In this document: positions 305 to 57,500 of the stretch, piece after piece | How the letters are laid out: every line of letters starts with the position of its first letter | Position numbering within the stretch: the stretch's first letter is position 1 | Assembly: GCA_015146655.1 (NCBI GenBank) | Contig: VKHL01000127.1 | Location: 20,446 to 84,445, forward strand | Length of the DNA stretch: 64,000 bases | Source: Ochromonas danica | Taxonomy: Eukaryota > Sar > Chrysophyceae > Chromulinales > Chromulinaceae | Direction of reading: 5' to 3' | Notes under the pieces: generated by a model | Seen by the model: only the letters and a program-made list of their open reading frames with translations | Database searches by the model: none | What the model was told of the DNA's origin: nothing | Position numbers and translations under genes: made by a program

Positions 305-686
305 GCAAGGAACCGTCGTTTTGAGATCAACTGTATTAGAAGAAAGGTAATGGATGTTATTCGAAAGAAGAAGAAACCATCGACTTTAACTTGATTGTAA
401 AGTCAAATCAACCAATTGATGATGACATCATTCGAATGACTGCTGTGTTGGCAGTAGGCTAGAAGACAGACTTCAGATTTAGGTATTTAGGGAATTTAGT
501 ATAAAAACGGCAGCAGAAACAGCTTTTTTGTCTCCCAGAGTTCTAGACTGTCAGGCTTCTAGAAGAAAGAACAAGAGAGAGAGAGAGATCGAACGATTGT
601 CCATAGAACAACCACTCGTCAAGTACAGCTACTTGAACTATCCATTGTCTTTCCTTTTGAATACTTTGGGTTTGAATATTCTTACC
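305..686. promoter_or_regulatory. Divergent intergenic region with ATTTAG repeats
   Basis: This region separates the ATGs of two divergent genes. Its distal part carries three ATTTAG hexamers at 477, 485 and 494 (spacing 8 then 9 bp) just before an A-rich TATAAAAA-like stretch at about 500. This resembles, weakly, the 8-bp-period arrays in other divergent promoters of the window. An open frame starting with TTG at 528 covers part of it, but the purine-rich agag run and lack of conservation argue for 5' UTR. Confidence 0.4.
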
Positions 687-15492: not shown

Positions 15493-17403
15493 TTAACAAC
15501 CATCTCCACCAACTGCTGGCTGGCAAGATGTGTCCACATTGATCAACAAAACAGCAGCCGCCAATCCGTACTATATCAACAACCCCAAACAAACATATCA
15601 TAAGCACACACGAGAAATGATGAAAGGCCATCTTCATTAAGAACTTACCCCTACAACGAGAATAGCCAAAACCAAAGCAATATAGCCTCGGGTATCGCTG
15701 GCTCCAAGCCTCTCTCCTTTTTCCTTCCACTCTTTGCATTCTTCCTTGGAAGCAGGTAAGAATGGCACGAAAATGAACGATGCACCAACACTAATACCCA
15801 ACAATAACAAAGTATAGTTGGTAAACTTCGTTGGTCCATCAGAATCAAAGTAAGCATCCTTGGATGTAATATCCACAGAGTTGGATGAACATCCATTGGT
15901 ATCATCATCACAAGAAACAGCATCCATTGGAGTGAGTAACTGTGTGCTAATGACTCCATTCAATGTTAATGCCGCATTACCCACAGTCACAATCAGCTCA
16001 TACGTTGTCGCTTCTTGACCAGGAACAGCGAGTTCGATTACAGCCATGGAATACAACACCTGAGCTAAACCCTGAACAAATTGGGTATCTAAATCAATGA
16101 AAATAGTGAACCAAGGATCCATTAATCCACCCGTATTATGGAAGGGCACAAGCCACACAAGTCCCATGATCGCAGCAATAAAGGTAGAAGCGAATTGTGT
16201 GTATCTCCAATTTCGGTTAATAAGATACTTCTGGAAGATCCAAACAGCTAAAACTAGAGCAGCATATGTCGTAATCGTATCAATACCAGACTGGAAATTC
16301 GTCAATTTAATTATATAATACTGCACAGTGATGGAAGCATTGTTTACGAAATTTGTCAAAGAACAAGTGCCTGTAACAAAGATCAGTAAATAGAGAGTCG
16401 TCAAATTTGTCATTGTGCTCCATAAACCTTCAAAATAATGACTCCAAGAATGCACTGGAACTCGACTATTATCTAACTCTTTCAAGAAGAAGATAGGAAT
16501 TGTTAACAATGCAACAATACCAAGCAGTAATCCATAATATTGATTGACTGTCAATCCCCAAGACCAACAATCCATAGCATCAGTGGGACAATCAGGATCA
16601 TTGGTTGTCGGACCATTAAGAAGAAATGTCTGAATAACACCAGCAACCATACAAAAAGAAAAGCGAATTCGTTGACCGGTGGCAAGAATTTGACCTCTTT
16701 GTTCAGGCTTCTCTAATTGCCCCAATTCCACACAATAACCATCAGCAGGGACATCACTCAACATAACGAAGCATTGCATAAACAACAATGTGAGCATCCA
16801 AGTGGAAGAATTCATTTGATCTCCCATAATGGCTAAAACCAACAACATGATTAACACCAAGGACCAACCCATCAACATCCATGGTTTACGACGTAAACCA
16901 AAAGGACGATAAGAGTCAGTTAACATGGCAAACCACACTTTGAAACTCCAAGCAAAGAAGACAATGTTTCTAGCATTAGCACAGACGTTGGAAGCTCCGT
17001 CATAATTGTAGACACAAAAGGGAAGCAGTGTGCCAGAGGATCCGTAGAGAAGCCCTACGGAAGCATATTGGCAGTAGAGACCAACATAGTTCCAACTCCA
17101 CATGTCAGGAACTTCAAGAAGAGGTTCAGCCTCATCAATCAGACCATCGTTTTCTAATTGAAAGCATAAATTACAAGATATTATTTATGGTATAAGGCTT
17201 GGGATATGAGAGAAGAGGAAAGAAAGAGTGGTGTGAGTATTACCTTCAATGGACTTCAAGAGGGATTTGCGCACTTCTCGTTCTTCCATGACAATATCTT
17301 CTGCTTCTTGTCCTCCTAAAGCAGAAGTAATATTGGGATTGGAATCCCTATTGGATGTTAAAAACAGCTCAGAGACAATTTCATGACTAATCGTTCGACT
17401 CAT
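15493..17403 (-). CDS. Folate/biopterin (BT1) family transporter
   Basis: Three exons (17403-17244, 17153-15649, 15570-15493) give 580 residues. The last small exon was found by splicing GT at 15648 to AG at 15571: it replaces an early stop and completes the final membrane helix (VLAILVV-GYGLAAAVLLI) and a short Cys-containing tail. About 12 hydrophobic segments are visible. Family hallmarks are the YASVGLLYG start of the membrane region, a loop with FAMLTDSYRPFGLRRKPWM (the D-x-x-P-G-x-x-R-R-x-P type motif after helix 2), and SDVPADGYCVELG in helix 4. BT1 proteins carry folates, pterins or S-adenosylmethionine in protists, plants and cyanobacteria. The cytoplasmic N-terminus is acidic and Ser-rich. 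Substrate and membrane location cannot be read from sequence. It is divergent from the IQ/B-box gene. Confidence 0.88.
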
Positions 17404-17939
17404 TTTCCTATCTAATTAATTAATCTAATATGTATAAATTGAGAGTTTGTTAGTGGATGATATCCGATATCTTGTTCTAATTCTAGTTGCTTTTTGCAGT
17501 TGTGGATGAGCGAGCCAGCGGCGGCCAGCGGAACGTGAGCGGCTGGCTCCTCGTTCCAACCATCTTATTAACAGAGCAGAGCCAAAGACACCACCAAAAC
17601 CACACACAGAACGATCTTTCATACAGCAAGGGAAGACCAGAAAATCACCGGAAAAGGGTTGGCGCAGAGTACAAGATTCTGGAATTCTGGAATTCTGTAA
17701 TTCTGGAATTCTGTAATTCTGTACTTCTGGAGATTTAGCGATTTCCAAATTCTCTAATCTCTAAATCTGGAAATCTGGAAATCTGAGAGCCGAGCGTTAC
17801 TTTGCCAGCAGCAGCGGTCATCATGCTTTCTGTTTTCAATTATTTATTGATTTATAGACGTTGTTTTATATAGTAGTTTTAAAGAATGAATATTTGATTG
17901 ATTATATATAACATCAGCAACAGTAATCATTGCGTCCAT
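17404..17939. promoter_or_regulatory. Divergent intergenic region with long 8-bp array
   Basis: 536 bp between the BT1 transporter and the IQ/B-box gene. The main feature is a 14-unit 8-bp-period array at 17675-17786. GC-rich sequence (GAGCGAGCCAGCGGCGGCCAGCG, about 17507-17530) precedes it. An upstream TTG-initiated extension of the IQ gene frame to 17898 is ignored. Confidence 0.5.
17675..17786. repeat. 8-bp-period array, 14 degenerate units (AATTCTGG-like)
   Basis: Cutting the sequence every 8 bp from 17675 gives gattctgg, aattctgg, aattctgt, aattctgg, aattctgt, aattctgt, acttctgg, agatttag, cgatttcc, aaattctc, taatctct, aaatctgg, aaatctgg, aaatctga. The phase is never lost although units diverge. 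It lies 272 bp before the BT1 ATG (minus strand) and 154 bp before the IQ/B-box ATG. Confidence 0.95.
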
Positions 17940-20900
17940 ATGAGTAATAAGAACAACTTTTCTCTTCATTATCCTTCTACCTCATCATCCACTAATCACA
18001 TCCTCCTTCTCCCTCAAGAAGAGAAAATGAAAAAAACTGAAAATCTTTCTATAGAAAAAGACAATGAAAATGAAGATATGTTGACTTCTTCAGTTCAGAT
18101 TAAGAACTTTCTACGTCAATTCACTATCGATGAGATTCAACGTCCTCTCAGTCTACATCAACAAGAACAACTAGCACAACATCTTCTCACTTCCATTCAG
18201 AGACTAGATGATGAAGAAGGAAAGCTACCTGATCATCTTGAAGAGTTCAAACGGATCTATGAAGGACCTCATCATGTTGAAGCAAAGCTACCAATTCTAT
18301 CACAACTTACCCCTCGTACCAAGAAGATGATTGCTGTCATTCCTAAACCCAATGAAGCTGAAATGGCTCAAGTGCGAGCTATTGAACGAGGTACTAGGCA
18401 TCAAGTTGGTCGTCCATTCTATCAAAAGCTTAATGAAGGCCGAAATCCTATGAATAAACTCAAAGAAGAGGATGACCCAACACTCTTAGATCCTTCTCGT
18501 ATGGAACCTTTGATTCCAAGGAATACTCAACCAACAACTGTGAAGAATAAGGCAATGAGCTATCTGGATAGTATTGAGCAGTATAAGCGCAAGCAAGCAG
18601 AGCAGCAAGATAAGATTGATTTACTCTTTGGTAATCAGCGCACTATATCAACTTCATCATCAGCTCAAAGTGTTGTTGAACATAATAAGATGAAGCGCCA
18701 GGGCAGTGGAGTTCTCAGTAGTCAAACGGTTAATCTTGGATATGGTAGCTCAAGTGGTGGAGAGGGTAAGAGGGCACAGACCAGTGTCAGAGGTAGACCC
18801 AAAGAAAAAACCTCCTCGCATCGATTAGAGCCTATGACACACACCCCTTCTTCCTCTTCGGCCAAGTATGAGGCGCTTTCTAATCGATCTCCTTCGCCGC
18901 CACTCCATAGAGCTTCGTCTGCAGTCTCAGTCAGCGCTGTTGATAAGACAGCGGCTACTGACAGAAGGTCAAGCGCTAATATCGCTTCTGCGATTTCGAA
19001 TCCTATCTCCTCTATTGGAAGTCTCTTACGTCGCTCACCCAATGACGCTACCTCTAGTAGTACTGAGGTGTTGCAGGTCAAGCAAAATGAGATAAGAAAA
19101 CAGCATCAGTCTTTTCTGGAAGATTTCACTGTGCGAGTATATGAAGAGATGGGTGTTGATCTCAATAGCTCTTTTAATCGTCTTCGAAAGTACCGACGTA
19201 ACCTTGAGATCATGCTCTATCATTTTTATCGTTTTCACCTCAACAATGCTCTGCGTCGGTGGAAAGAGCGTACTTCATTAAGTCGAGAATTCCTTCGTCA
19301 ACAAGCAGCTTGGACGATCTATCGTGCCTTCCGCTACAACCATCTTTTCTCCGCCTTGAAAGTGCGTTTTACACGGCGGTATCATGAGAAAGTCCTAAAA
19401 GAGAAACGGGCAATGATTTTGGAGGCTTTTCGCAACGATACTGCAAGTCGCATCACCCGATGCTTGCGTAAGTTTGGAGAAAAGAAGCGTTTGCGGGAGC
19501 GAATGAAGCTTTCTCAGGCAGTGCGCCGTGTTCAAAGACTCTACCGCGGATGGATTGGCCGAAAAATAGCGCAGCTAAGGCTTGTTGAAAAGAAACGTAA
19601 AGAAAAAGCAGCCATTATGATCCAATGTCTTTGTCGTAGAAGATTGGCCATTCGCAAGGTATTTTAACAATGCTACTCTTATTACTTCCCGACAGCTTTT
19701 GCTAACTGTGTGTCTCTGATTAATTTTGCTCCCAGGTGTCCTTGCTGCAAAAGCTCAGTCATGTGGCCTCCTGGGTTCATGCCATGGAAACTTTTCCTAC
19801 TAACTACAGACTTCGAGCTTTGCAACAAACGTCTGCTGCCTTTATTATTAAAGCTTACCGGAGCTATCGTATAAAGAAGAAACTCTATAAACTTGTTTAT
19901 TACAATCGCTTTGCTCGTGCAATCATTATTCAGCGATACTATCGAGGATTCAGAGAGCGAAAGGCTTACCTTCAACATCTTGAGGAGAAGTATCGGGAAG
20001 AAAGGATGAAAAACAAGAATGCTGTTATCATCCAAAAATATGTTCGCCGCTTTCTGGCGGAGTTGGCGTTAGATCGACTTTATGAGGCAAAAGATAATCG
20101 CCAAATTGAGCTATATAATCAGAAGTTACTTTTACTTGCCCAAGGAGATGGCTGTTTGACATTTTTCAAACGTTACCTTCATCGCTGGCGTTACTGGCAC
20201 CCATTCTCCAAAGAAAAAGTCTACGAGAAGAAAGCGCTCTTGATACAGAAGGTGTACCGTGGCTATCATGGGAGACAACGAGCTTATCTTCTGAAAATCA
20301 TGCAAACGGTGGAGAAAGTTCAAGCAGCTCAACTGAAGCGTTATCGCGCTGTGGTGCGCATTCAAAAGCATTGGCGGGGATACCAAACAAGGTTAGTTTC
20401 ATTTCTACTCCTCATAATCAAGTTTTAGTTAATATTGTGCTGTTTCTTAATATACCGATAACAGAGTTAGATTACATCAGCGTCATCGTGCGAGTAAAGC
20501 AGTTGTTATCCAATGCCTATATCGATGTCACAACGCACGAAAGAGGTTCAACTTTCTTAAGCTGTTAAACCGTCGAGCCGCTTTCCTCACAGCCAATGTT
20601 CGTCGCATGATCAAACGTCATCATTTCCATCTACGCTATAAACGCCAGCAATATCTATTACAAGCTGCGATTCCCATTCAATGCTTCTTTCGAAGATGTA
20701 AAGCGCGGAGAATTCGTGACCGGCTCCTCAAAGAGATGCGCACCCAGCGGGAGTATAATCTGATAAATCATATCCACTTCATCCATTTATTAGCCTCCGT
20801 CCAGTTGCAAATTTTAATTGATACTATTCCAAAAGCCATTCAGCATCGTTATTACGTGGTATCCGGAGTCGATTGTCCGTGTCTCGGTCCTATTCAAGCT

Positions 20901-23900
20901 TTGTTTGTCTTGGGCATCTGCGGCAATTATAATCGTTCCGATCAGCAGACATTAGCAACAAACAAATTAGAAAATGCCAGCTTGGTAAAATTTCTCAACA
21001 AAATTGATGGAATGACTGAGAAAGAAGGCACTGAAAGAGTGAAGAATTCTTTTACCAATGGAATCTGCAACTATCCTGAGGGTGATGCAAAAGAGAGCAT
21101 CTATCTCCATCCTAGCACTCTTCATCAAGCGTTTATGACCGAAGTTTTGCTAGGCTATATCCCTTTGTTGGAAGTGCAGCATAAACTCTCTACGATTGAG
21201 ATTGATATCATCTTCAGTAGGAGCAAGAGCAGTCGCAACGTCACACATAAACTCACCTATAAAGAGTTTCTCAATGCTGCTCAACTCATTGCGGATGCCC
21301 ACTATTCTAAGGCAGAAGAGATTTTTGAGCAAGAAGAAATTGGACAACAAGCGGAAGAAGGAGTTTCTGAAGGACAGTTGTCGGTGGGTGTGGATGCTGG
21401 TGGCCAGATGGAAAGAGCTGCATTGGAGGAAGGAGGACCGTCATCTGCTTCAATTGCGACTGAATCGCAGCAAGATGAGCTAAGAACAGAAGGTGAAGTG
21501 ATGGAGGCAGAAGAGGAAGTAAAGGACGAGCTCCTTGAGGCCGTCAAAGAGATTTATGATGATCGCCAACCATTTCATCTCAAGAAATTCCTATCTGCTA
21601 ATATTCAAGCCATCAACAAGAAAAGCGGCTTCTTCCATCCTGATCGAATGCGTGCAGATCCTGATGTAGTTCGTCAAGATCCCCGCTTAGCTTTGTTTAT
21701 TCGCTGGCTTGCTTATTTTCGTGAAGAGGAGTTTGTTCAAAAAGTGTTATCCTGGCTTGATCTGGAAAGTCGGGCGAGGTTAGGTCTATTAGTCATACCA
21801 TTTCAATGTTTAGTGCGGAAACGACAAGCTCGCTTTCGGTTTCAGCGACGCTTTAAGGAGAAAGAGGAAGAAGATCGACAAGATGGTATATTGAAGAATG
21901 TCGTTAAAATGCAAAGCATAGTTCGCGGCTTTATTTGGCGCAGGCGGGTGATAAAATTGGCTCAACGGACTCTGCGCAAGTATGTCCCTACCCTCAGCGA
22001 TCCTTATTTCTTCCATCCCATCACAAAAGTGAAGTCGCGTGAGAGACCGAAAGTACTTAAAGGTCACGATTGCTATACCCTGGCATTACCAGAATCTGGC
22101 TTGGAAAATGTTGTTCGGTGCTATAATTGCCAATATCGGGAGGCAGTCTTAAACTGTCATCAATGTGAGGATTCGATGTGCAGAGTATGCTTTGACTCTT
22201 TGCATTGCAAAGGTCAACGATCAAAACATACTTATTCTATGATCCCTCATTGTGGTTATTGCTTGTTTCAAATGGCCACAAAGAGCTGTGTTACTTGTGT
22301 AGTACGTTCTTCTCCGCCAGGCAGCAATACATTACAGAGCTCGCTGCCTCCTAGCCAGCGCGGTTATTACTGTGATACCTGCTTTCTCTATGAGCATGAT
22401 TCCTTTCAGCATCAGCTGGAAGAGCAGCCTCATCTTCGCAATCAATTGAAGACCCTATTTCAAGTCTGCAAGGAAGCTTATCTCGTCGCTAACTATCTTC
22501 ATCAGCGAATATCTACACATCATCATTATGAAATGTTGACTCAGCCTTGCGAAGAGTGTCATCTACTGTCGGCATCCTGGAGGTGCTTTGATTGTCAACA
22601 AGTCTACTGTCATCGTTGCTTAATCACCTTGCATAGTTTTCATCAACAATTTGCTCGGCATTCTATGGAGTTGCTTCCTTACTACACTCATTCCATGCAT
22701 CAATCCTTTCGCAAAGATGTGGCAAGACAGGTGTTTCTTAAACAATTGGAGCGAGTTCAGCATCGAGCTAGAATTGAACGGGAAGAATATGAAGTGTACT
22801 GTGCGACGATCCTTCAGTCCTGGTGGAGGATGATTTATGGAGGAAGAATAGGCCGGCGTCACATGAAGAAGCGCAGGCAGTTACTGCGTAGAGCCTATCG
22901 GCTTCGCAAGAAAGAAAATCTTGAAATTCGATCCACATGGGGGTACCGATTTTGGACTTCTTGGGGTCGTGGTCCTGAGCTGGTATCCGACACAAGAGAG
23001 GAGCGAGTACTTAATGTCCTTCCGTGGTATCGTCGACCCATTGCAAAAACTTTCATCATGGCCAATATTGAAGATTGGGGATGGTATCAACTTAGTTCGT
23101 CCTCCTCCACTTCTATCTCATCTAGCAGTACGCGGAAGGGAAACCCACGCAAAGGTTTCGAAGTGGGCAGCATCGAAGAGTTACGAGATCAAGCTCGATT
23201 TGGTGGGTATCATATGCCGGGGCGGGTTATCGTGCAAGTAGCGGAGAGGACCTTCACAACCACCCAGGATCTTCGGGATTTCCTGCATCCAGGAGAGCTT
23301 GTTCGCATTCGAAATCGCATTTTCGGAGTCATTACCGTGGATCAAGATAGCATTAAAGTTAACCGATTATGGAGAGAAGAGCATTCACCTCGGCAGCTTG
23401 AGGAAGGAAAGAGGAGCAGCAATAGCAGTCGACGTAGAGAGGAAATAGGAGAGATTTTGTATCGTCTTCCTACCTATCGCAATGAGCCTCAGCGCTTCTA
23501 TTTCAGGATGCGGTATCGCGCCTATGACCTCACTATTGGTAATCCTATGACGCAACTGGTTTTTTACCTGTATCGACTGTATTCTCTGCGGATGATGGCA
23601 TTTTCTCTATATATGTCACACCTCAATAAGAAGAATAAGCACCGCGAAGAGGCTGTACAGTGGAAGCAAAGAGCAATAAAGTACATGGAAGCTGCTCGCT
23701 GGGCTGCATCGTACGCATCCACTGGTGATGCTTTCCGCAACCTCTCGATCGTTACCAAAGAAGAGGCTTACGAACGAGCCGAAAAGGCAAAGCAGTCGTT
23801 GAAGAGAATTGAGGAAAAGAAATCTATGAAAAAGAAAAGAAAGAGGAAAGGTGATGGAGAAGAGGAAGAAGACGACGAAGAAGAGGGACAAGCTGTTGGA

Positions 23901-24536
23901 GGAAGTCGACCTGGAAGTAAACAATCCAAAAAGTCGCGCAAGAATGGAAAAGGAGGAGATATGGATGCGGAGTTCAGTGGAAAAGAGAAGTCAAAACCAT
24001 CCTCTCGTTCTTCCAGCAGGCGATCGCGCACATCTCGTTTGCGCAGCTCGCGAGTAGCCGCGACCACTTCAGATAGCAGCCCCGCCTCGCCTTTAACCAC
24101 CACAGAGAAATCAGGTAGTCGACGAGGAACAAGCTTGTTCCCTGGTATGCTTGTTAACAGTCGATCTAATAGTGGTAAGAAGCAATCTAGACGAGGTAGA
24201 CAGAAGCCTCCCAAAGCCAAGGCTCCATGGTATGCCTCTGCGGAACAGATTGCCCAACGCAAGGCCAGAGAGGACCGCATGACCATGCAAGAGCTGGCCA
24301 ATGAGGCTCCTGAATGGAAAGAGTGCATTGATGTGATGACTGAGAACATCTATTACCTCAACGTCAACACCAACGAGATGATGACTACTGTTCCTCGTGC
24401 TGTTCAAAGCAAACGCCAATTAGAATTCGAGAACTCCAAAAACAAGAAGGCTTTCGATGAGGCAAGGCTAAGAATCGCCACTCTAGAGAAGGTGACTAAG
24501 AACCGTCTGCTCCTCACTGGTGGCCGCAAACGCTAG
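17940..24536 (+). CDS. Giant IQ-motif / double B-box / WW-like scaffold protein
   Basis: Three exons (17940-19658, 19736-20391, 20465-24536; introns of 77 and 73 nt) encode 2148 residues. The first third is Ser-rich and disordered. From about residue 440 onward there are many IQ-type segments (for example AVRRVQRLYRGWIGRKIAQ near 526 and VVRIQKHWRGYQTR), which usually bind calmodulin or light chains. Two zinc-binding B-box-like clusters follow, near 1340 (CYNCQYREAVLNCHQCEDSM...) and near 1485 (CEECHLLSASWRCFDCQQVY...). A Lys/Arg/Ser-rich basic stretch precedes a C-terminal WW-like segment near 2075-2110 (W...IYYLNVNTNEMMTTVP). This mix is typical of large protist proteins of the cortex or flagellar apparatus, but no specific orthologue is recognised. 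A start at 18027 is also possible. Confidence 0.85.
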
Positions 24537-31524: not shown

Positions 31525-31548
31525 TAACCCTAACCCTAACCCTAACCC
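31525..31548 (+). repeat. Interstitial telomere-type repeat (TAACCC)4
   Basis: Four perfect TAACCC units, i.e. TTAGGG on the other strand, 32 bp upstream of the seipin ATG and 159 bp before the TPR gene. It may be a telo-box-like promoter element or a scar of break repair. Confidence 0.95.
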
Positions 31549-31585
31549 TCCTACTGAAATCTCTTATGAGAGGGCTAGTCGTCCA

Positions 31586-31633
31586 GAATCTAGAGATCTA
31601 GAGATTAGTCTAGATTGCTAAATACCTAGATTT
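31586..31633. repeat. 8-bp-period array, six CTAGAT-type units
   Basis: Cut every 8 bp the sequence reads gaatctag, agatctag, agattagt, ctagattg, ctaaatac, ctagattt. Units are degenerate but in phase. It lies in the seipin/TPR divergent promoter beside the telomere-type repeat. Confidence 0.6.
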
Positions 31634-37230: not shown

Positions 37231-37781
37231 TTCTTAATAATTGAATTAATTGAATTATTTTATTAATTATTAATTTTTTTTTCTTTCAGTGACAGGTGAC
37301 AGAGGATTGGTTTGTCCGAGAAGGACCACAAGGTACAGTAATCGAATGAAATCAAATCGTGTGGTTAGAGGGAGACAAACAACGCGTTTCTTGGAAACTA
37401 CAGAGGTAGTTCTTCGTTTGTCCTATTCCTCAACAACAAACGGTCTCTTCTCACCACCACTCAGCAGGGTGCTGCTGCACTGTACTTGTACAGTAATAGT
37501 CTTTAAGTGGTAAGAATGACAAAAATAAACATCTACCTCCCCCTCCTGTTTGAGACAAATGAATAATACTATCAATCAACAAGAATCCATTTTCTGCTGC
37601 TGTCTGTCATTCATTCTCATTACTAATTTTTGATGTTTTGAGAATGGATGCCAACGAGCCCCGAAATTCCGAAATTCCGAAATCTCGAATAATCCAGGAA
37701 GCCACACAACCACCAGCCAGCCAGCCCCAGCCGTGCTTTGCTCTCATCACAAGAGATAGTTAATCACAGATTGAGAAGAGA
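37231..37781. promoter_or_regulatory. Divergent intergenic region CCT8 / eL36
   Basis: 551 bp. AT-rich sequence next to the CCT8 start, a purine-rich middle with no convincing gene (a 74-codon ORF at 37289 lacks features), then the four-unit 8-bp array (37662-37693) 89 bp before the eL36 ATG. Confidence 0.5.
37662..37693. repeat. 8-bp-period array, four CGAAATNN units
   Basis: Units cgaaattc, cgaaattc, cgaaatct, cgaataat start at 37662, 37670, 37678 and 37686. The unit matches the CGAAANNN array at 12930 in both sequence and period. Confidence 0.9.
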
Positions 37782-51679: not shown

Positions 51680-51757
<78 letters not shown>

Positions 51758-51782
51758 TGTGTGTGTGTCTGTGTCTGTGTGT
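51680..51782 (+). repeat. (TG)n microsatellite downstream of the kinase exon
   Basis: Pure TG from 51680 to 51756, then TG with C interruptions to 51782. It starts 74 nt after the kinase exon's donor and ends 11 nt before the Myb-like exon. Confidence 0.95.
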
Positions 51783-54457: not shown

Positions 54458-54539
<82 letters not shown>

Positions 54540-57500
54540 TGTGTGACGACGGGGGTATAGGTGGGACAGCTCATTTCCTCACAAACTGGTCAATTACAGT
54601 TACAAAAGGAAAAGATCTCACAATTACAATTAGCTTTACAAGATGAATTAACACAATCACAAAATCGTATTGCAGAACAAGAACAAGAGATTAAATGGTT
54701 GAAAAAAGCATTAGATGAAAGTAATCAAGCTATGCCAAAAGATCAAATGGAGAAGATGCAACATCTTATTGATGTCTGGCAATCACAAGCTAAAACAGCT
54801 CATATGGAATTAAGTATTGTTTTACGTCAAGCAGAAGAATTAAAAGGTATTAATACTAATTTAGAAGAAAAGATACGTGAGTTAGAAGCAAGTAATAAAC
54901 AACTAACAGATGAAGCAGATGCAAGTGATGCAGAAATTGCAGAATTAACAAGTAAATATACTTTAGCTTTACAAGAAAAGGAAAATCTTGATGAAGTGAT
55001 CAAATCAAGTAAGAAAGCATATGATGAATTACGTTTAGTAATTACAGATCAGATTAAAGTGAATACAGAACGTGAACAAGTGTTAAAGGAAAATACGAAA
55101 TTAATTCAATCTTTAGAAGTTGAACGTGTACAATTACGTGATCGATTAACAACAGAAGGTAATGTTGCAAAGGAGAAACAACAAGAATTAACCAATCGAA
55201 TGAATCAATTAGAAAAAGAAAATATGGAATTAACGAATAAGTTAACAACTACTATACGATCATTAGAACAAAAGACACAAGATATGGTAGAAGATGCTAA
55301 TAGTAAGATTTCAAAATTAGAAGATGATTTAGTAATAAGTCAACAAACTAATCAACAATTATTACAAGAAATTGAAAATAATAAGAAATTAGTTGAAGAA
55401 GAAAAATCATCTTGGATTGTTCAAATGGAACAAAAAGAGAAATCATTAGCTGATATTGAAGCTGCGTTAAGAAGAGAATTACAAAATTCATCTAAATTAT
55501 CGAATCAAATTATGAATTTACAAAAGGAAAATTCGAATATGAAAGATAAAAATCAACAACAACAAAAGAAATCACAAGAACGATTTGATTCATTAGCTAA
55601 ACGATTACAAGAGAAAGAAGATGTTATACATCATCAAGAAAAGGATTTACAAGAATTACGTGATTTAAAAGAACAAGAAAAGAATACTTTATTACTTGAA
55701 TTTGAACGTATTTTACAAGAAAAACGATCACAACAATTACAAGAAATACAAGAATTACGTAAACAATATGATAATAGTAATCAATTAAAAGAATTAGATT
55801 ATCAGAAGTTATTAGAAGAAGAAAAAGAGAAATATCAAGAAAAGGAAAGACAATTTCAAGAACAATTACAAGCTACTGAAGTAAAAGTACGTGAAATGAT
55901 TGAAAAAGAAATTGAAGAAGGTATGATGACATTACAAGAAAGACATCGTATAGAGATAATAACCATAAAAGAACAAATGATGAAAGATCAAGAAGAAGCT
56001 ATGAAATCATTGAAAGAAGTATATCAAAAAGAAAAACAAGATGCTTTACATGATCAAGAAGTATTATTAGCACATCGATATGAGATTATTAGTGAAGAAA
56101 AATTAGATGCACAAAAGAGATTATTAAATACAGAAAAAGAAGAAATATGTCAAAAAATTAGACAACAATGTAATCAAGACATGTTTAAGAAATTAGAAGA
56201 ATTAGAATTATTAAAAGATCATCATGGTGAAGAAATGAAGAAAGAATTAGAATCTTATCTAACAAGTCAATTTACACGTGAGAAGAAAGATTTGATCGAA
56301 AAAATGGAAAGAAATCAAAAATTGAAAATAGAAGAAGAAAGAATGAAATTAGAGAAAATCTATGAAGATCAATATCATAATAAAGAAGAAGAATTAATGA
56401 AAGAATTAGAAGATAATAAGAAAGCTTATCAACGTGAAAAAGAAGAAGCATTAACAAGATTAAAAGTTCAATTATTAACAGAAATGAGTAAGAAAATGAA
56501 AGAAATAGAAGAACAAAAAGAATTAGAAAATCAAGAACAACAAGCTATTCTAATTTCAGAATATCGTGAAAATGCGATAAAAGAAAAGAAAGATGCATTA
56601 GATCGTTTAGAGAAAGCATGGAAATTGAAATGGGATGAAGAATTACGACGATTAGATAGTTTACATGAAAATAAACAACATGATAATGAATTACGACATG
56701 TACAAGAAATTGAAGAATTAACAAAACAATTCTTAAAAGAGAAAGAAGAAGCTATTACTAAAGTGAAAACACAAGGTAATATGGAATTACAACGTAAACT
56801 ACAAGAATGTATTGATAGTCATGAAAAGGCATTATCTGAATTAAGACAAGAATTAGAAGTTCAATTAACAGGACAATATAGTTTAGATATGAAAGAAGCC
56901 TTAGTTAAACAAGAAAGTCAATTAAGACAACGATATGAAGATCAATTACGAAGACAAGAAGAAAGTCTAATACAACAACGTGAAGTCATTGAAACAACAT
57001 TAAATGATGAAATTCAACAATTAAGACATAATTTACAAATTGAAAAAGAAGGAATAACAAGATTAAAATTAATTCATAATAATGAATTAACACGTCGTTT
57101 AAAAGAATTAGAAGATATGAAAGATCAATATCTATTAGAAGAAAAAGAACATCTAAAACAAGAATATAATAGAGAGAAAGAATTAGCTTTAGAACGACAA
57201 GAAAAGATATTTAAACAGAAATTAGACGATGCTTTACGTAAAATTGAAGAACGTTATCAACAACAATTACAAGAACAAACTGATAGTTTACAAGAGAAAA
57301 TAGAAGCAGAACGTGTTGTATTATTAAGTGAAAAACAAGAAGCTATTACTAAAGTGAAAACACAAGGTAATATTGAATTACAACGTAAACTACAAGAATG
57401 TATTGATAGTCATGAAAAGGCATTATCTGAATTAAGACAAGAATTAGAAGTTCAATTAACAGGACAATATAGTTTAGATATGAAAGAAGCCTTAGTTAAA

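Follow-up and report, generated by a model that had tools for sequence, protein, structure and literature searches.

A promoter of the alga Ochromonas danica carries an array of short units repeated every 8 bp, and arrays of the same kind recur across the genome on the 5' sides of predicted genes, mostly in divergent promoters. The arrays share a class of five-base cores, among them TCTGG, and this core is found far more often at 8-bp steps than at 7- or 9-bp steps. We consider it probable that such an array is a promoter-located homotypic cluster of putative binding sites for one or a few related DNA-binding factors, with core and spacing under selection. The array was detected in a window of 64,000 nucleotides (C127:20446-84445), which belongs to an assembly of 31.2 Mb in 337 contigs.

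The array lies between two start codons that were read from the sequence, at 17403 on the minus strand and 17940 on the plus strand. Coding segments, here and below, were predicted with a crude hexamer model, for which 40 ORFs from the analysed sequence served as the training set and which finds the BT1 start codon. The features of this region are as follows.

15640..17403, minus strand: BT1-family transporter gene (Pfam PF03092); the predicted first coding segment, 17266-17403, begins at the start codon
17404..17939, no strand: divergent intergenic region with the array, from start codon to start codon (sequence and coding prediction)
17675..17730, plus strand: array block 1, composed of seven units of 8 bp whose core is TCTGG/TCTGT (lag-8 identity, Tandem Repeats Finder, shuffles)
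17731..17762, plus strand: degenerate stretch of four units with weak core matches, separating the blocks
17763..17786, plus strand: array block 2, AAATCTGG AAATCTGG AAATCTGA, sharing its phase modulo 8 with block 1; 17766-17786 was also scored separately
17940..19667, plus strand: ORF on the plus-strand side (coding prediction)

The preliminary description had placed the array between BT1 and IQ/B-box genes. As to BT1 and the B-box, Pfam agrees, with BT1 on the left (minus strand) and an ANCHR-like B-box in the next ORF rightwards (20607-24536, plus strand); a Pfam search of the ORF directly beside the array (17898-19667) gave no match. The Pfam content of the window is eukaryotic. In the assembly, the chlorophyll-binding family PF00504 has 47 matches, and one such protein has LHCI, XLH, VCPI, and FCPI chains as its closest relatives of solved structure, of which XLH and VCPI are, we assume, tied to particular algal groups. 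These features indicate a photosynthetic eukaryote, and the light-harvesting chains suggest an ochrophyte alga. Four chlorophyll-binding matches with identical scores, spaced 2407 bp apart, form a tandem gene array at C224:8673-16382. Long TG and GT runs adjoin long ORFs of the window at 51680-51782 and 54459-54545.

The 8-bp period claimed for 17675-17786 was confirmed. Bases 8 bp apart are identical at 78 of 104 positions (75%), compared with 39/105 at lag 7 and 32/103 at lag 9, and identity stays high at longer multiples (64/96 at lag 16 and 51/88 at lag 24). The best lag-8 segment scored 49.2, against a mean of 4.9 and a maximum of 12 in 1000 dinucleotide shuffles of the intergenic sequence 17404-17938. 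Tandem Repeats Finder reports only 17676-17731. Fourteen units in exact phase had also been described, and this holds in part. Both good blocks keep the same phase modulo 8, for which the chance expectation is 1 in 8, whereas the units are unequal. The TCTGG-like core fits 10 of the 14, in the order of seven fitting, four degenerate, and three fitting units; units 1-7 and 12-14 match 4 or 5 of the 5 core positions, and units 8-11 (17731-17762), read in the array's phase, match 3, 2, 1, and 3.

Searches of the whole assembly revealed that the array is one member of a family. Three copies of AATTCTGK, with up to 3 mismatches, were found at 25 places, 5 of them in the 17675-17786 array, and at none for the reversed pattern; most matches consist of TCTGG or TCTGT plus a varying three-base spacer. 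A search for four TCTGG cores at 8-bp spacing (TCTGGN3), in which as many as 3 mismatches were allowed, returned 428 overlapping places versus 16 for the reversed pattern. When TCTGG-core spacings of 7, 8, and 9 bp were compared genome-wide, four cores were found at only 7 places with 7-bp spacing (4 reversed) and 14 places with 9-bp spacing (7 reversed), making the 8-bp arrangement 30-60 times commoner than either. All such counts of places are lower bounds. The 428 places overlap within arrays, and by our reading the first 100 listed represent about 60 separate arrays; we therefore estimate a few hundred arrays in the genome. In 270 kb, the TCTGG scorer found 5 runs that reached 4.0 and lay outside the centres of the array loci, the 17675-17786 array accounting for two; the reversed sequence gave 0.

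The core is wider than TCTGG. Four units of TTCGGN3 were found at 94 places versus 3 reversed, and four of TCTAGN3 at 176 versus 81 reversed, a high control that may be inflated because TCTAGAGATCTAGA arrays contain GATCT. Many of the listed TCTAGN3 matches mix TCTGG, TCTAG, and TTTAG within single arrays. A pattern of T, pyrimidine, pyrimidine, purine, G (TYYRG) and three loose bases covers the observed cores.

A preference for 8 bp was also observed in DNA that had not been selected for arrays, namely the window and 60 kb of contig C3 with the 17675-17786 array masked (40.8 kb noncoding and 83 kb coding). In its noncoding part, TYYRG pairs at 8 bp number 16, whereas distances of 5-40 bp average 4.3 and the second highest, 5 bp, has 10 pairs; in its coding part there are 7 against an average of 6.1. 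The corresponding noncoding count for TYYGG is 7 versus 1.1, and pooling in the noncoding flanks of the array loci raises the TYYRG count to 41 versus 12.6. The Poisson p values (1.2e-5 for TYYRG and 1.6e-4 for TYYGG) are both too small, because the 16 pairs take in several from one array as well as palindromic TCTAG on both strands and are not independent. The preliminary description would have divergent promoters enriched in lag-8 signal. Core-based counts and the array loci bear this out, but plain autocorrelation does not: in the noncoding DNA of the same sample, lag 8 does not stand out for exact 5-mer repeats (188, compared with 417, 97, 262, and 111 at lags 6, 7, 9, and 10). With the 17675-17786 array included, a TYYRG pair at 8 bp is present in 5 of the 13 divergent gaps, 4 of the 43 same-strand gaps, and none of the 12 convergent gaps, a sample too small to demonstrate lag-8 specificity per promoter since distances of 5, 6, or 16 bp reach 4 of 13 divergent gaps. 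The sequence TCTAGTCTAG would space TYYRG cores 5 bp apart, which is the runner-up pair distance.

To define the setting of the family, 51 array loci were drawn from the best listed of the 428 places, 33 from the searches (including the 17675-17786 array) and 18 added. Twenty of the roughly 60 first-listed arrays, C3:141045 (inside L061), and C95 were left out. The set includes L020 and L021, which were entered by their searched place since the scorer found no run in them. It also counts one duplicated segment three times, as L024, L025, and L026, all of which fall among the 10 loci with one predicted neighbour. Both neighbours were predicted at 41 loci, of which 24 are divergent, 15 same-strand, and 2 convergent; at the other 10, the array is on the neighbour's 5' side in every case. 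Random noncoding positions are divergent in 24.5% and convergent in 15.1% (binomial p 3.6e-6 and 0.04, respectively, for the array loci against them). Among arrays scoring at least 6, 16 of 22 are divergent by hand count (p 2.6e-6). The arrays of L037 and L072 overlap predicted coding sequence. The 5' sides of predicted genes, mostly divergent promoters, are therefore the general setting of the family. The flanking peptides that we looked at seem mixed by eye; we take them to include PCNA-like, uS11-like, clathrin-like, aldolase-like, and other proteins. At L066:600-2400, the divergent genes around the array resemble paralogues by eye, as if an inverted duplication had occurred about the promoter.

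The window itself holds three further sites of this kind.

478..547, no strand: fourth site, with a TTTAG pair on the plus strand and a TCTAG/TCTGG pair on the minus strand, each spaced by 8 bp; the genes on either side are predicted and divergent
31589..31630, minus strand: third site, TCTAG/TTTAG runs with a step of 8 bp, located in a seipin-family gene's divergent promoter (seipin by Pfam)
37661..37689, minus strand: second 8-bp array of the window, with a TTCGG core (lag-8 segment; C127:58106-58134, 1 mismatch in the TTCGG search)

The last of these occupies a divergent promoter between a CCT chaperonin gene (minus strand, by Pfam) and a plus-strand gene that we recognised by eye and take to be eL36-like. 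The promoter of the third site also contains (TAACCC)4 at 31525-31549, the same as the telomere repeat. This co-occurrence with TYTAG units might suggest that the arrays are interstitial telomeric repeats or mobile-element copies, a reading we find scarcely credible. A search for TTAGGG returned 408 places, at least 9 of the first 100 listed lying at contig ends; because the telomere repeat is this 6-bp unit, which differs from the array unit, the arrays are not telomeric. A dispersed mobile element was likewise rejected, as the flanks of the 51 loci are unrelated, with two exceptions: the duplicated segment of L024, L025, and L026, and 28 bp in which L014 and L038 match. Contig-internal TTAGGG runs were seen at C6:102499-102561 (contig of 387222 bp) and C9:181956-181991 (373832 bp), and the array promoter of L024, L025, and L026 (C219 and C256) sits within duplicated segments close to contig ends.

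The orientation of the cores was compared with that of the genes at 47 loci (without L020, L021, L025, and L026). With one gene downstream, 12 arrays are sense and 10 antisense; relative to the nearer gene of divergent pairs, 11 are sense and 12 antisense. The median distance from an array to the nearest downstream predicted coding segment is 209 bp for 45 arrays, the two convergent loci having none. Such proximity in half of these arrays would suit RNA elements in 5' untranslated regions, recognised by an RNA-binding protein, but the near equality of antisense and sense cores makes this very improbable. The preliminary description had raised a transcription-initiation platform, in which every unit would be a start-site element and initiation would occur at 8-bp spacing. 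The arrays are indeed close to gene starts, and TATA-like words are denser within 200 bp of them than in further noncoding DNA (49 loci, without L025 and L026), although the latter includes introns and 3' regions and the enrichment may partly be one of promoter over non-promoter sequence. Initiator elements are directional, however, and cores that face either way relative to the genes make us regard such a platform as improbable. This independence of orientation argues for action at the DNA level, and the position of the arrays for action at promoters; the density of TATA-like words also counts in favor of promoter-located binding sites. In the same comparison, with the same reservation, GACTAG/TCTAGT words are about 4-5 times enriched in noncoding DNA within 200 bp of arrays.

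How the units arise was addressed by comparing 35 four-unit cores. The spacer bases of adjacent units are identical at 136 of 210 positions (65%), versus 30% between loci. This identity points to local duplication as the probable maker of units, and much of many arrays appears to be its product. Units directly outside the searched cores match in phase at 2.60 and 2.57 of 5 positions, versus 0.46-1.83 at other offsets, figures lifted by several long arrays whose core was picked from the middle; the second units out are hardly raised (1.40 and 1.71 of 5). Like minisatellites, then, the arrays have head-to-tail units and local homogenisation, and some are near perfect, such as the ten TCTGGCTC units on C1 (L030). 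These properties, with the 65% spacer identity, are what neutral minisatellites would display if slippage spread 8-bp units in open promoter chromatin, leaving core and spacing without function, and we treat this as a possible though rather unlikely alternative. Slippage does not explain a single core with a single period, and duplication by itself would give 8 bp no advantage over 7 or 9. Within the comparison of 7, 8, and 9 bp, unit sequence and length are not arbitrary between loci for the TCTGG core; unlike minisatellites, arrays at unrelated loci have a single class of core in common and favor one period, and they lie on gene 5' sides. Three-base spacers differ between arrays and at times inside one, and L034 and L048 each retain four exact cores despite three different spacers. 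The earlier proposal of selection on spacing rather than slippage is accordingly upheld as to selection, given the excess of 8 bp over 7 and 9 bp (428, 7, and 14 places) and the varying spacers, while slippage may still be the source of units.

Among known systems, homotypic transcription-factor site clusters come closest, being likewise many copies of a short promoter site in either orientation. As in such clusters, the site is repeated beyond chance and located on gene 5' sides, where a regulatory role is predicted; a fixed 8-bp register over many unlinked loci is unusually strict for them. Sites of the yeast general regulatory factors Rap1, Reb1, Abf1, and Tbf1 are found at promoters of many unrelated genes, divergent ones included; the arrays, too, are located at promoters, beside genes that seem mixed by eye. 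The yeast sites usually number one or two per promoter, unlike the long head-to-tail arrays of the alga. The window array also contains TTCTGGAATTC, that is TTCnnGAA, as heat-shock elements do. Heat-shock modules alternate every 5 bp, and inverted nGAAn modules at this interval are not seen in 17675-17786 (15/107 at lag 5 and 24/102 at lag 10 versus 78/104 at lag 8), in line with the original remark that classical heat-shock elements do not match. Across the family TCTGG is retained, whereas the spacer varies, and so do the bases needed to form GAA; a heat-shock element was rejected for the family as a whole.

In the explanation we favor, a homotypic cluster, putative sites would be packed head to tail, one per 8 bp, at promoters that are mostly bidirectional. 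The factors would read the TYYRG core (TCTGG, TCTAG, TTTAG, TTCGG, etc.), followed by three less constrained bases. Neighbouring proteins may fill the array cooperatively, and a filled array may keep the region nucleosome-free, so that the cluster probably acts like a general regulatory factor site and serves both genes. Units would be born by local 8-bp duplication and then drift, with selection keeping the in-register cores. Steps of 8 bp rotate neighbouring sites by about 270 degrees (10.5 bp per turn), and same-face stacking is therefore not the aim; small domains packed tightly head to tail, or one repeat-built protein, would fit. The stacked binding array suggested from the outset fits the 8-bp preference, the variable spacers, and the divergent setting, with the binding itself presumed from these patterns. 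A bolder version is a lineage-specific, register-based promoter code, in which TYYRG cores are interchangeable and are read at steps of 8 bp, or three quarters of a helical turn, by a single protein that is built of repeats or forms filaments; we hold this to be unlikely. If true, promoter strength would be set by the number of in-phase units instead of one consensus site, and many bidirectional promoters of an algal lineage would be marked in this way.

No description of 8-bp TYYRG promoter arrays was apparent among the papers listed by our literature searches, which covered few subscription papers. Homotypic site clusters and general regulatory factors are both familiar, whereas none of the papers listed appears to describe an 8-bp register kept so strictly, with exchangeable cores, at many loci. 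To our knowledge, little has been reported on the promoter architecture of ochrophyte algae. An element that recurs genome-wide with strict spacing, and that can be recognised without data other than sequence, is a pointer to a dominant DNA-binding factor, for which the array is a ready bait; for algal biotechnology, it suggests a rule for designing two-way promoters that can be put to the test.
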